Origin: Gymnopus androsaceus JB14
Lineage: Eukaryota; Basidiomycota; Agaricomycetes; Agaricales; Omphalotaceae
DNA: 64,000 nucleotides
Reading direction: 5' to 3'
NCBI GenBank assembly: GCA_009733575.1
Contig: ML769475.1
Location: 155,162 to 219,161 of the forward strand
Part shown: positions 51,741 through 56,988 of the stretch, piece after piece
Layout: the number at the start of each line of letters is the position of its first letter
How positions within the stretch are numbered: position 1 is the stretch's first letter
Program-made: the position numbers and the translations under genes
The notes under the pieces: generated by a model
What the model was told of the DNA's origin: nothing
The model's input: the letters and a program-made list of their open reading frames with translations, nothing else
Databases searched by the model: none

Positions 51741-51750
51741 GTATATATAA
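51741..51750 (+). promoter_or_regulatory. TATA-like box of the micro-exon gene
   Basis: GTATATATAA lies about 90 bp upstream of the ATG at 51836, the same spacing as at the other secreted-protein genes of the window. Confidence 0.5.
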
Positions 51751-51835: not shown

Positions 51836-52431
51836 ATGCAGCTCAAATTTATCTCCCTCATTATCGCAGGTTTCGCGATTGCATTCGCTTCAGCCAGCCC
51901 TCTTCCCCGTATGTTTCTTTCTCTGTTCAGTTACGACCCTTTGTCGCTAATAACTTATTTTTCTCTCTCTCTACATAGAAACTGGTGGTATGTACTAATA
52001 CGTTCTATTACTTGGTTGATGCTGCTGATACTTTGTCTTAGTAGACAGTGGTATGTAACATGTTTTATTAATTGCGCACTACTAATGTACTGATTTTGCT
52101 CCCTAGCCAGCAACGGTATGTAATATGCTTTATTTCTTGGTTGCTGCTGATACTTATTGCTTGCTCACTACTAATATCTTACTATTTGTTCCTCAGATGC
52201 TGGTATGTAATATCCTTGTTTCTTGCTCATTGTTCAACACTGATACTTTGTCTTCTTCTTTCCTAGGTGGTATGTAATATCCTCTATTAATAGTACTGAC
52301 TACTAATACATTGTTATTTTGCTTCCCAGCTTTAGGTATATCATATGTTTTACTTCTTGCTCACTGCTGATGCTTTGTCTTTCTGGACCCTAGGAGCTCT
52401 TCTGGGAAACCTGATTCAAATCAACAGATAG
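51836..52431 (+). CDS. Small secreted peptide encoded mostly by 3-9 nt micro-exons
   Basis: Exon 1 (from 51836) encodes a clear signal peptide, MQLKFISLIIAGFAIAFASA, then SPLP, and ends in phase 1 before GTATGT. Consecutive short introns, each GTATRT...CTRAY...YAG, separate six micro-exons: AAACTGGTG, ACAGTG (or TAGACAGTG), CCAGCAACG, ATGCTG, GTG and CTTTAG. The final exon starts GAGCTCTTCTGGG and has its stop at 52429-52431. Every micro-exon is a multiple of 3, so all junctions are phase 1 and the spliced frame stays open (QTG-DS-ASN-DA-G-AL, then GALLGNLIQINR). The product is about 49 residues, about 25 after signal cleavage. No homologue is recognised. The third intron looks like two units fused after loss of a micro-exon. 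Splicing is inferred from consensus only. Confidence 0.72.
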
Positions 52432-52582
52432 CAGATGAACCATATGTCAATAAAGTAGTTATGCAGAACAAATGTAATACATACGCTGGTTGTCAGGAAC
52501 CATAACCTGTGAAAACACTTGAGTAATCTGCTCCCTTCAAGCTGGTAAATATTCACCCCCATACCTTGAGTTCTCTTTCAAG

Positions 52583-53140
52583 GTAGTGATAACTCTCATC
52601 TGGGAAGTAGTATATATCTACTACCCCTCCTGTCACTCCTCTGCGCTCCATGTGGGGAGTAGTGATTAACTACTACCTCCCTCCTTCTAGGGGGGTAGCA
52701 GTTATTTACTATGTCCCTTTGTCTCATCTGGGACTATTACTTTGGGTAGTAATTAATTACTACCTCCTCAACTCCATCTTGAAGAGGAAGTAGTAAATAT
52801 CTACTACTCCTCCTGCGAGACCTCCCTGAGCTTCATTTTGTTTGCCAAGAAGTAGTAAATATCTACTACCCCTCCCGTCACTCTGTCTTGTCTGGGGCAG
52901 TAGATAATTACCACACCTCCCTAAGCTTCATCTCATCTGGGAAGTAGTAAATATCTACTACCCCTCCCATCACTCTGTCTCGTCTGGGCTGGTAGATAAT
53001 TACTACTAACTCCTTAAGCTTTGTCTTGTCTGGGGTAGTAGTACTTATCTACTCCTCCACACAAGATGGAGGTAGTAGTTATTTACCCACTGCTCACCCT
53101 TCAGCATTCTCTGGAGGACTAGTAGCTATTTACTACATCC
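52583..53140. repeat. Palindromic minisatellite (AGTAGTAAATATCTACTAC family)
   Basis: About ten units with a period near 55-65 bp repeat the near-perfect palindrome GTAGTAAATATCTACTAC, followed by a CCCCTCC.TCACTCTGTCTYGTCTGGG spacer. Variants include GTAGTAATTAATTACTACC and GTAGTTATTTAC. Single-stranded DNA of this region would form a series of hairpins. It fills the space between the micro-exon gene and the gypsy fragment. Confidence 0.8.
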
Positions 53141-53697
53141 CTGTCCGTAGAGTTCGGAGCATTGTGACTTGCTTCCTCATCCTCATCTTCCGACTGGTCA
53201 GAATCTCGTTCTACGAAATCTTCACTTAAGTCATTGATGTCTAGATCATACTCATCGTCCACAGGTTCCTTTAAGTTCGGAATAGCGTCAAATGCCAAAT
53301 CTCTACCCACTTCCTCACTTTCCATCATGTGGTCCAGTTGCCTCGGTGTGAGGTCAATAAGGTCATGAATGTTCCGCGGGAGTTCAATAGGTTCGTATTG
53401 AGCGTGATGTGGTAGCACCCTGAAGGCGCCTACTTTCTCTTTTAGGACTGCTCCATTCATCTCGGCAAGGATGTAAGATCCTCCGCGCGTTCGACGAATC
53501 ACCACAAGTGGTCCTTTATACCTCGGCTGCAGTTTACGATTAAGAGACTTCTCAATCATAGTGTTCCTTACTTGAACTAGCTGGCCAGGTTTAAAATCAT
53601 ACTCCTTAATGGTATGACCATATTCCTTCTCGAAACGCCTGAGTTCTCGGCGTTTGTTCTCATCCACACGAGAGATCATATCACGGATATGAACTCG
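53119..53697 (-). pseudogene. Ty3/gypsy pol fragment (integrase C-terminus)
   Basis: The minus strand encodes HIRDMISRVDENKRRELRRF, EKEYGHTIKEYDFKPGQLVQ, VRNTMIEKSLNRKLQPRYKG and GAFRVLPHHAQYEPIELPRN, then an acidic tail. This is the end of a gypsy polyprotein. Neither LTR nor upstream pol is present. Its left border merges into the palindromic minisatellite. Its right border abuts the first intron of the second micro-exon array, so it replaced that array's 5' exon. Confidence 0.85.
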
Positions 53698-55160
53698 ATG
53701 GTGATATGTACTAATACATTTTATTACTTGGTTGATGCTGCTGATACTTTGTCTTAGTAGACAGTGGTATGTAACATGTTTTATTAATTGCACACTACTA
53801 ATGTACTGATTTTGCTCCCCAGTTTTCGGTATGTAATATGCTTTATTTCTTGCTCACTGCTGATATTCTTCCTACTCCCTAGATGGTGGTATGTAATATG
53901 TTTTATTAATTGCTTACTATGTATTGATTTTGCTCCCCAGTCAGCGGTATGTAATATGCTTTATTTCTTGGTTGCTGCTGATACTTTGTCTTCTTATTCC
54001 CTACTAGAAGGTATGCAATATGCTATATTACATTTTTGCTTGCTACTAATTTGTTGTTTTTGCTTACCAGAGATTGGTATGTGATACACTTTATTCTTCA
54101 ACCAGGATTGCTGCTCATACTTTGTCTTTCTATTCCCTAGATGGTATGTACTATGCTTTATTAAATACTTGCTCGCTACTAATATGTTGTTTGTTTCACT
54201 ACCCAGCCACTAGTGTGTAATATATTTTATTTCTTGCTTGCTGCTAATACTTTGTCTTCCTATTCCCTAGGCAAAGGTATGTAATATTCTTTATTAATTG
54301 CCTGCTGCTAATACATTGGTTTTTTTTTGCTCCCCAGCTATTGGTATGTAATATGCCATATTTCCTGCTCAATGCTGATACTTTGTCTTTCTACTTATTC
54401 CCTAGATGGTATGCAATATGCTTTATTACTTGCTCACTACTGATACCTTGTCATTTGTTCCCCAGATGCCCATATGTAATATCCTTGTTTCTTGCTCATT
54501 GCTGATACTTTGTTTTTCCTCTTCCCCAGTTCGTAGTATGTAATATGCTTTATCAATTACTCACTACTGATACATTATTCTTTTGCTTCCAGCTGCTGGT
54601 ATGTCATATGCTTTAGTTCTTGCTCACTGCTGATGCTTTGTCTTTCTGGACTCTAGGATCTGGTATGTAACACTTTCTATAACTTGCTTGCTATCAATAA
54701 TAGACTATTGTTTGTTTTTGCTCCATAGTTTCTGGTATGTAATATGCTATATTTCCTGCTCACCACTGATACTTTGTCTTTCTATTCCCTAGATAGTATG
54801 CAATATGCTTTATTACTTGCTCACTACTGATACCTTGTTATTTGTTCCCCAGATGCCCGTATGTAATATCCTTGTTCCTTGCTCATTGCTGATACTTTGT
54901 TTTCCCTCTTCCCTAGTTGATGGTATGTAATATGCTTTATTAATTACTTGCTACTAATACATTGTTCTTTTGTTCCCTAGATATAGGTATATCATATGTT
55001 TTACTTCTTGCTCACTGCTGATACTTTGTCTTTCTGGACCCTAGTAGCTGGTATGTAATACTTTCTATGACTTGCTTGCTACTAATAGTACATTGTTTTT
55101 TTTTGCTCCATAGTTGGTAGTATGTAATACACTATATTTCCTACTCACTGCTGATACTTT

Positions 55161-55347
55161 TGTTAGGTAACGAGATAGCACGGTCGGTACAACCCCGGTA
55201 GGACTCAATGGGGAGGGAATCAATGGGGGGAAAAGGGAAGTAAGATTACTTGATTGAGTGTAACTACATGTATTATATACTGAAGGAATAGGAGGTATAT
55301 GCGACGTGCGGAGCGGCCGGACAACCAGCAGCCAGGTATTTCCAACA
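55161..55347 (-). repeat. 3' LTR of the gag-only retrotransposon (187 bp)
   Basis: Matches 56614-56785 except for a ~15 bp extra segment (GTCGGTACAACCCCG) and a few substitutions. Confidence 0.88.
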
Positions 55348-55438
55348 CTCCCACTTGTACGGTCGCGTAGCAATCATAACCGAAAGGCAATAATAAACAA
55401 AAATAAAATAAACATACAAGCCAGCTCCCACTGAATTT

Positions 55439-56302
55439 CTAAAATGGTAGCAACTCATTTGCACTGAATGGCATCTCTGCCGAAAGGACGTGGGTATTGA
55501 TAGGTGTCAAAGCAGCACCAGCGAGAACTTGATTCTCAGGGCAGGAGGACTGGTAGTGACCGCGTTTTCCGCATTTGAAACATGTAATATCGGCGAGTGG
55601 GTGACGGGGATAATTGCGGGGTGTGCGTGTAGCTAATGCGGCAGCACTGTTCAGAGTATCTTCATCATCTGAGCTGGAATCGGCATCGACAAAGTTCTGC
55701 AGGCGGGCAGTAACATAAGTGATGTCCCCTGACTGGGGATCTCCATCGAGCAAGGTGATGACAGGTTTATATGATGGAGGAAGGGATGACAGAATGCAAG
55801 CAATGACCAGAGTGGGTGAGATCATCTCACTGAGGCTTTCGAGGAGGTCTCCATGTTGGCGGATGGTTTTGATGTGCGTTTCAATTGTGACATAGTCCTT
55901 CTTCCGAGTGTGCATCATCTTCCAATAGATTGATGTAAGCGAGCCAAGTCCTTTCACAATGTGGTAGTTCCGAAGTTTCTCCACCATGGCAAGAGGGTCA
56001 TTGTCAATACCCTTGATGTGCACATACTGGTCGGCATCTAGGCTTTCAACAATAATTGATGCCGCGAGGTCTCTCTTCATCTTCCAAGCCTTCCACACCT
56101 TTTCATTCCTTCCCGAGGTTGGTTTGGGTTCCTTCTCTACTCCAATCAAATCCACATCTAGTCCAGCACTTTCCTTGGTCCACCTCTCGATGAACCCAAG
56201 AACTTCTTTCCTTCTCAACTCGGCTCTTCTCTGGATCAGCCAATTCCCAAATAGGTCTTCTCCCTGATTGTCCTTCAAAACAATTATATGAGGGTTGGAC
56301 AT
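55439..56302 (-). CDS. Gag-like protein of the copia-type element
   Basis: The probable start is MSNPHIIVLKDNQGEDLFGN; an open frame continues further upstream to 56437. The body matches the copia-type gag (UBN2-like) fold: WKAWKMKRDLAASIIVESLD, AMVEKLRNYHIVKGLGSLTS, IYWKMMHTRKKDYVTIETHI and ILSSLPPSYKPVITLLDGDP. A CCHC zinc knuckle, CFKCGKRGHYQSSC, lies near the C-terminus. The frame is intact over about 288 codons, a sign that the element is young. Confidence 0.85.
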   Translation of the reverse strand: MSNPHIIVLKDNQGEDLFGNWLIQRRAELRRKEVLGFIERWTKESAGLDVDLIGVEKEPKPTSGRNEKVWKAWKMKRDLAASIIVESLDADQYVHIKGIDNDPLAMVEKLRNYHIVKGLGSLTSIYWKMMHTRKKDYVTIETHIKTIRQHGDLLESLSEMISPTLVIACILSSLPPSYKPVITLLDGDPQSGDITYVTARLQNFVDADSSSDDEDTLNSAAALATRTPRNYPRHPLADITCFKCGKRGHYQSSCPENQVLAGAALTPINTHVLSAEMPFSANELLPF

Positions 56303-56613
56303 GGCGAATCGAATAGCAACGGTGGTACAGTCAAACGAGGCTCCCACTGGAACCGGCAAATCGGGGAGGACACGGGCGCTTTCAGATACGGTGCAGACAC
56401 GGCTTTCGAGTACGGCAGATTGGGTTTGGTTTGGCAATCAATGATAAGTGACTTTGGCCTCACTTGGGCAGGTACTGGCTTCGGCCCCAGTGGCAGTCAA
56501 CGCAACGGTAACGAGTACTGGCTTTGGCCCCAGTGGCAGCAACGAATAGGAGTAAGAAGAGAGTGAGTAACAACAGTGATGGGTGGTAGCTCTAGAGGCC
56601 CAGTCTCATAATC

Positions 56614-56785
56614 TGTTAGGTAACGAGATGGCACGGTAGGACTCAATGGGGAGGGAATCGATGGGGGGAAAAGGGAAGTAAGATTACTTGATTGAGTGTA
56701 ACTACATGTATTATATACTGAAGGAATAGGAGGTATATGCGATGTGCGGAGCGGCCGGACAACCAGCGGCCAGGTATTTCCAACA
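56614..56785 (-). repeat. 5' LTR of the gag-only retrotransposon (172 bp)
   Basis: Partner of 55161-55347. On the element's own strand it runs TGTTGGAAATACC ... TTACCTAACA. Confidence 0.88.
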
Positions 56786-56988
56786 ACTTTGTCTTTCTAT
56801 TGCCTAGATAGTATGTAGTATGCTTTATTGCTTGCTCACTACTAATATCTTGTTATTTGTTCCCCAGAAATTAGTATGTAATATCCTTGTTCCTTTGCTC
56901 ACTGTTGATACTTTCCTCTTCCCTAGTTGGTGGCAACCGGTATGTAGAAATTTAAGCACCCTTATCATGATTGGGGGGGGGGAAGGGG

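Follow-up and report, generated by a model that had tools for sequence, protein, structure and literature searches.

Positions 51836–52431 of the window (the whole 64,000-nucleotide stretch of Gymnopus androsaceus DNA analysed here) hold a short predicted gene on the plus strand. A signal-peptide-like exon is followed by seven predicted introns of 70, 57, 56, 81, 64, 60 and 58 nt, which are separated by only 9, 6, 9, 6, 3 and 6 nt, the anatomy that the original prediction had described. The features of the gene are as follows.

51742..51750, plus: TATA-like box TATATATAA, from the sequence; by alignment also present in the copies on contigs C150 and C230
51836..51908, plus: exon 1, MQLKFISLIIAGFAIAFASASPLP plus one base, phase 1; signal peptide recognised by eye
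51909..51978, plus: intron 1, 70 nt
51979..51987, plus: micro-exon AAACTGGTG, 9 nt
52045..52050, plus: micro-exon ACAGTG, 6 nt (other acceptors: 9 or 2 nt)
52107..52115, plus: micro-exon CCAGCAACG, 9 nt (downstream acceptor: 5 nt)
52197..52202, plus: micro-exon ATGCTG, 6 nt
52267..52269, plus: micro-exon GTG, 3 nt
52330..52335, plus: micro-exon CTTTAG, 6 nt, then donor GTATAT
52394..52431, plus: last exon, with TAG at its end
52449..52454, plus: AATAAA, possible polyadenylation signal, by eye

The spliced coding sequence is predicted to be 150 nt long and to read MQLKFISLIIAGFAIAFASASPLPQTGDSASNDAGALGALLGNLIQINR before the stop. It had been claimed that all junctions are in phase 1, that the micro-exons are multiples of three and that the frame is open to a stop. 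With upstream acceptors this is borne out, every junction of the gene being in phase 1 and the frame open down to the TAG. At ACAGTG, an AG 3 nt upstream would give an in-frame exon of 9 nt and a downstream AG one of 2 nt; we took the upstream YAG there and at CCAGCAACG, where a looser parse gives 2 and 5 nt. The donor of the last intron, GTATAT, is weak. Read unspliced, the gene runs for 85 codons into intron 3; we rejected this reading as a conserved open reading frame, since in the C150 copy it meets a stop (by eye) where intron 1 ends.

Just 3' of the gene, at 52600–53150, lies a minisatellite-like stretch with units of about 46 or 92 bp and a core like GTAGTAATTATCTACTAC. The window also contains a UPF1-like gene; of its 1067 matches, the 120 listed include genes from Laccaria, Agrocybe, Agaricus, Fomitopsis, Crucibulum and Pluteus with 91–92% identity.

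A second, larger array, absent from the original prediction, lies at 53.7–55.16 kb and resumes at 56.79 kb.

53697..55160, plus: second array, 5'-truncated and without exon 1; 22 micro-exons of 3 or 6 nt
55161..56785, strand not assigned: LTR element lying within an intron of the array, its ends and duplication recognised by eye
56786..56940, plus: remainder of the second array past the insertion (ATA and AAATTA, followed by a 13-nt spacer)

One donor of this array, after 54471, is broken by a change of GT to AT. The inserted element has TG...CA ends and a 5-bp duplication (ACTTT), LTR parts of 152 nt that are 98% identical, and a minus-strand open reading frame for a copia-type gag-like protein with a zinc-knuckle. 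Its length of 1.6 kb leaves no room for a full pol, and it is probably a non-autonomous element that was inserted in an intron of the array. Judged by its sequence, the second array is a decayed paralogue split by this element.

Splice grammar and family members on three contigs

We parsed the arrays with a strict grammar (GTRYGT donor, YTRAY branch site, YAG acceptor, introns of 45–90 nt and exons of 3–12 nt). The gene in the window contains a chain of 6 introns, and chains reach 23 introns in its paralogues. The window has 7 chains in total, every one of them within the gene or the second array. When the remaining window sequence was dinucleotide-shuffled, 28 of 30 shuffles were without even a two-intron chain, and the other 2 had one of two introns. 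The micro-exon chains are far beyond chance.

Across the window and the loci L009, L011 and L012, the strict grammar yields 87 gaps between introns, and no chain outside the arrays. With exons of 1–12 nt allowed and ties given to the upstream acceptor, 87/87 gaps are multiples of three; with ties given to the downstream acceptor, 82/87 are, the other five being 2, 5, 2, 2 and 5 nt. These gaps are not independent, because units are duplicated and the arrays are related. If ten lengths were independent and all lengths from 3 to 12 nt equally likely, the chance of such multiples of three would be about 1e-4. A looser parse adds three spacers that break the rule (8, 5 and 13 nt), each in a copy without an intact exon 1.

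The 118 introns that we extracted, a few end introns being left out, measure 52–81 nt, and their lengths fill all three classes modulo three (64, 37 and 17). The extraction pattern requires the AG end and limits positions +1 to +4, so the counts at those places are partly by construction. With the decayed array excluded, +5 is G in 94/97 introns and +6 is T in 92/97, and a branch motif is found in 95/97. The longest array has 37 introns, and in the last 29 of them, one of which lacks a motif, the branch site switches back and forth between CTGAY and CTAAY; the alternation is less regular in the other arrays. This alternation suggests that the duplication unit was probably two introns with two micro-exons, and later six. 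The array units are clear tandem repeats, with a higher-order period of 387 bp.

We searched the fungus's own genome (83 Mb, 934 contigs) by a similarity search that skips very common words and scores the best candidates only. The 35 matches listed are all on C93, which carries the window, or on C150 or C230; when the C230 copy served as query, the matches were on the same three contigs. A pattern search gave 17 matches, again on these contigs only, and its backward control gave 0. The claim of a secreted-peptide gene made of consecutive micro-exons thereby gains support at the family level, as the architecture recurs on three contigs. The predicted gene in the window is the short member of its family.

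A search with exon 1 recovered the gene in the window, a single copy on C150, another on C230, and a doubtful match on C50. The latter (C50:30827-30898) encodes a signal peptide 50% like that of the family, with an E value of 0.056. This match lies in a predicted gene for a secreted Gly-Gln-repeat protein (L046 4200-4900, minus strand), which we rejected as a relative since micro-exons are absent by eye.

The minus-strand copy on C150 combines exon 1 with 30 micro-exons: 23 of 6 nt, 6 of 3 nt and a single one of 9 nt. Among the 6-nt exons is one that can also be read as 18 nt. The plus-strand copy on the same contig has a truncated exon 1 and carries 38 micro-exons, two of them 8 and 5 nt long. 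Separate 3' pieces on C150 end in AGGCTG / ATTCAAATGATG / CC TGA, a stop reached with the phase unchanged. The C230 copy has exon 1 and 14 micro-exons up to the contig end. No long member is assembled whole: the 5' and 3' ends on C150 lie in inverted pieces beside an N run, and the C230 copy is cut by the contig end. At about 51–69 kb of C150 (L009, L010, L011), two inverted arms flank about 12 kb of N, their best blocks matching at 96% over 1850 bases and 98% over 795 bases; in each arm the 3' end is inverted beside the 5' part, which may reflect a palindrome, an assembly problem or a withheld stretch of sequence. A spliced, intronless copy was not found in a genome search with 156 nt of joined exons, an empty answer that is uninformative.

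We notice that the introns resemble one another, as would be expected if introner-like elements, mobile intron copies, had been repeatedly inserted in one short exon. Near-identical introns dispersed through many genes were not seen in the genome search, which is not complete proof; the matches stay on C93, C150 and C230, and the 387-bp period indicates that exons and introns were duplicated together. An origin from introners is therefore extremely improbable.

Divergence between copies and reading frame

Gap runs lying wholly within introns number 10, 12 and 13 in three pairwise array alignments; 7, 9 and 12 of these have lengths that are not divisible by three. Exon length is unchanged in 21/21, 22/22 and 29/30 homologous exon pairs; the single exception is a mis-paired end exon. 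Two gap runs, 16 and 19 nt long, involve an exon, the C150 micro-exon that can be read as 6 or 18 nt. Exon lengths that stay multiples of three while the introns pick up indels favour the micro-exon reading put forward in the original prediction.

With sites treated as independent, the C150 minus-strand copy and the second array of the window differ at 46/114 exon sites and 101/947 sites of the intron body (p = 5e-14; 42/108 exon sites without one poorly aligned pair). The plus-strand copy and the second array differ at 40/120 and 102/934 sites (p = 2e-9), and the two C150 copies at 16/164 and 49/1289, or at 12/156 exon sites without the mis-paired exon (p = 0.03). Micro-exon divergence is two to four times that of the flanking introns. 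Standard positive selection was considered as the cause of this fast change but is not supported by dN/dS, since dN is close to dS (0.56 and 0.52, 0.46 and 0.29, 0.08 and 0.10 in three pairs). Synonymous and non-synonymous micro-exon sites both lie about two- to three-and-a-half-fold above intron divergence; the introns may evolve more slowly under splicing needs or through exchange from unit to unit.

Between the window and C150, exon 1 differs at 4/73 sites and the upstream region at 70/371. Donors changed at 1/173 positions between the C150 copies, compared with 49/1289 in the intron body (p = 0.024), and branch sites are not slower (8/145). Where residues changed between a C150 copy and the window array, their hydropathy is still correlated (r = 0.40, p = 0.023).

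In the phase-1 frame, no internal stop occurs in any of the six arrays translated (6/6). One of the other two frames is stopped in every array, and one is open in the C150 3' piece and the C230 copy. That phase 1 is open is weak evidence, since most exons end in G or A after a T and stops are rare anyway. A micro-exon that ends at a donor leaves a split codon starting mostly with G or A and a preceding codon ending mostly with T, which limits the choice of residues. This donor constraint would explain products rich in Ala, Gly, Val, Asp, Ser, Thr and Asn.

In the phase-1 products, the hydrophobic moment peaks at 100 degrees in the C150 minus-strand copy, 99 in the plus-strand copy, 100 in the C150 3' piece and 99 in the second array of the window. 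When exon order was shuffled, the p values in the same order were 0.002, 0.001, 0.045 and 0.001 on the Kyte-Doolittle scale and 0.016, 0.008, 0.123 and 0.001 on the Eisenberg scale. A significant helical period is thus present in 4/5 long arrays tested and in the phase-1 frame only, although the two long C150 copies are close relatives and the independent cases number about 3. In phases 0 and 2, no shuffle gave p below 0.05 (lowest 0.053), and one also peaks at 99 degrees (p = 0.40). The C230 array shows no helical period (p = 0.27 and 0.29). For the short gene in the window, where residues alone were shuffled, the moment peaks at 104 degrees (p = 0.04). A helical period significant in the phase-1 frame alone, with the conserved TATA box and exon 1, is in line with the micro-exon gene that had been proposed.

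The exons of the six-intron unit (6, 6, 6, 6, 6 and 3 nt) add up to 33 nt, or 11 residues, which matches three helical turns. With the 11-residue period held in four C150 units, 1.9% of the 720 within-unit exon orders reach the observed moment. The three C150 products each have a peak of residue identity at lag 11 (13/49, 14/56 and 5/12 positions); this peak is lacking in the window array (4 positions, lag 7 giving 5) and in C230 (0). Eleven-residue (hendecad) helical repeats occur in apolipoproteins, LEA proteins and type I antifreeze peptides. The predicted C150 products are like them in the 11-residue period and in a moment near 98–100 degrees, but here the micro-exon lengths set the period, and the products are glycine-rich, with uncertain helix strength.

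A non-coding tandem satellite, the decayed relic of one intron pair with chance splice-like motifs, would fit the clear repeat units, the decayed and transposon-hit second array, and branch positions that change no more slowly than the intron body. It would not account for a maintained frame, a frame-specific helical period, slow donors between the C150 copies, or the conservation of exon 1 and the TATA box, and we regard it as very improbable. The whole array might instead leave as one composite intron, or by nested stwintron-like splicing, with a product of exon 1 plus the last exon and micro-exons that never code. Since all junctions are in phase 1, that jump is also in frame; yet lengths in multiples of three and a helical period specific to phase 1 are unexpected for discarded spacers, so that this kind of splicing is improbable.

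Variable inclusion or skipping of symmetric micro-exons could also make the locus a combinatorial gene that yields a cloud of related, in-frame peptides, as variable micro-exon inclusion has been proposed to do for the micro-exon genes (MEGs) of schistosomes. The exon-1-bearing copies (6, 30 and 14 micro-exons) agree with this, 50/50 of their micro-exons being multiples of three with upstream acceptors. However, the helical period depends on exon order and would be blurred by free skipping, and the intron signals are strong throughout. We consider free combination rather unlikely.

Proposed mechanism and known micro-exon systems

On the reading that we prefer, with a probability of roughly 0.8, the window locus probably belongs, as a live gene, to a small secreted-peptide family built of tandem introns and phase-1 micro-exons. 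We infer splicing, secretion and the mechanism of array growth from sequence features. A member of the family would consist of a signal-peptide exon, tandem introns of about 58 nt split by symmetric micro-exons of 3, 6 or 9 nt, and a short stop-bearing exon. Intron definition would remove every intron, probably one after another. Fungal introns of this length, about 58 nt, are naturally recognised across the intron. An exon of 3–6 nt seems too small for factors on both sides, so the introns are probably removed in sequence, and every join would create the exon side of the next donor. The joined micro-exons would give a short peptide with hydrophobic residues at a helical period, and in the C150 members each six-intron unit would add one 11-residue repeat. 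Arrays would grow by tandem duplication of intron plus micro-exon units, in which intron homology feeds unequal exchange and symmetric exons hold each gain or loss in frame.

We lean slightly towards a further view, in which the intron array itself is the coding unit. Tens of exons of 3–9 nt, each overlapping its own splice signals, would be joined serially, perhaps variably, to write an amphipathic peptide of 11-residue repeats, and two-residue modules would be added, lost and shuffled in frame, driven by intron homology. Tentatively, the product might be a secreted amphipathic peptide that is active at surfaces or membranes and is changing rapidly.

If transcripts confirm this splicing, the spliceosome takes at least 30 introns, 3–9 nt apart, out of one short mRNA, and neighbouring 3' and 5' splice sites would probably be too close for simultaneous binding. 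The family would then offer a natural test bed for intron definition, splicing order and the lower limit of exon size. Genes of this kind are likely missed by the usual gene finders.

Protein similarity searches with the family products, by a method that needs shared 5-residue words, found no homologue, including none outside the Gymnopus androsaceus genome. A Pfam search with six products gave no match above the cut-off, and a PDB search with one product gave no match; LPXTG-anchor scores in Pfam (E = 0.024 and 0.24) are below the cut-off and were taken as chance. In the open-licence literature, surveyed mostly at title level and with preprints excluded, no fungal micro-exon array was found. 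Trichoderma Xlr2 has a functional microexon, the first to be described in a filamentous fungus according to the abstract of its report (PMC11121469). It differs in being a single microexon with a switch role in a transcription factor rather than an array in a secreted-peptide gene.

The original prediction had compared the locus with schistosome MEGs, and the comparison stands as an analogy; a sequence relation was not found, and the introns here are tiny rather than long. Excerpts of one account of these genes describe a signal peptide followed by many tiny exons, mostly multiples of three, and secreted, diverse products, with 10–20 exons, mostly of 15 bp (3 or 6 to 81), and introns of 0.1–5 kb (PMC10526429). 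The fungal family is alike in its very short exons, mostly in multiples of three; by eye, its exon 1 looks like a signal peptide in three loci. It differs in exons mostly of 6 nt, in introns of about 58 nt, all 118 of them within 52–81 nt and none as long as 0.1–5 kb, in tandem repetition, and in kingdom.

Aphid bicycle proteins contain paired CYC motifs, which are absent here, as the phase-1 products of the six arrays are without cysteine. As far as the excerpted account goes, bicycle genes have many small internal exons, nearly all starting from codon position 2, and about 17 exons on average; their products are putative effectors of very divergent sequence, and the aphid megacycle gene contains over 100 microexons (PMC9168663). 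By that account, the exon number of the fungal array alone is no record. The likeness lies in small exons of one phase, all junctions being in phase 1 in the three exon-1-bearing fungal copies. The difference lies in the organism, an insect, and in fungal exons of 3–9 nt in tandem repeats with predicted mature peptides that lack cysteine. We conclude that the family arrays, as predicted, are true micro-exon genes, for which membership among schistosome MEGs or aphid bicycle genes is not established but to which both are analogous. If true, this would be an independent fungal origin of the micro-exon design known in secreted proteins of parasites and gall insects.
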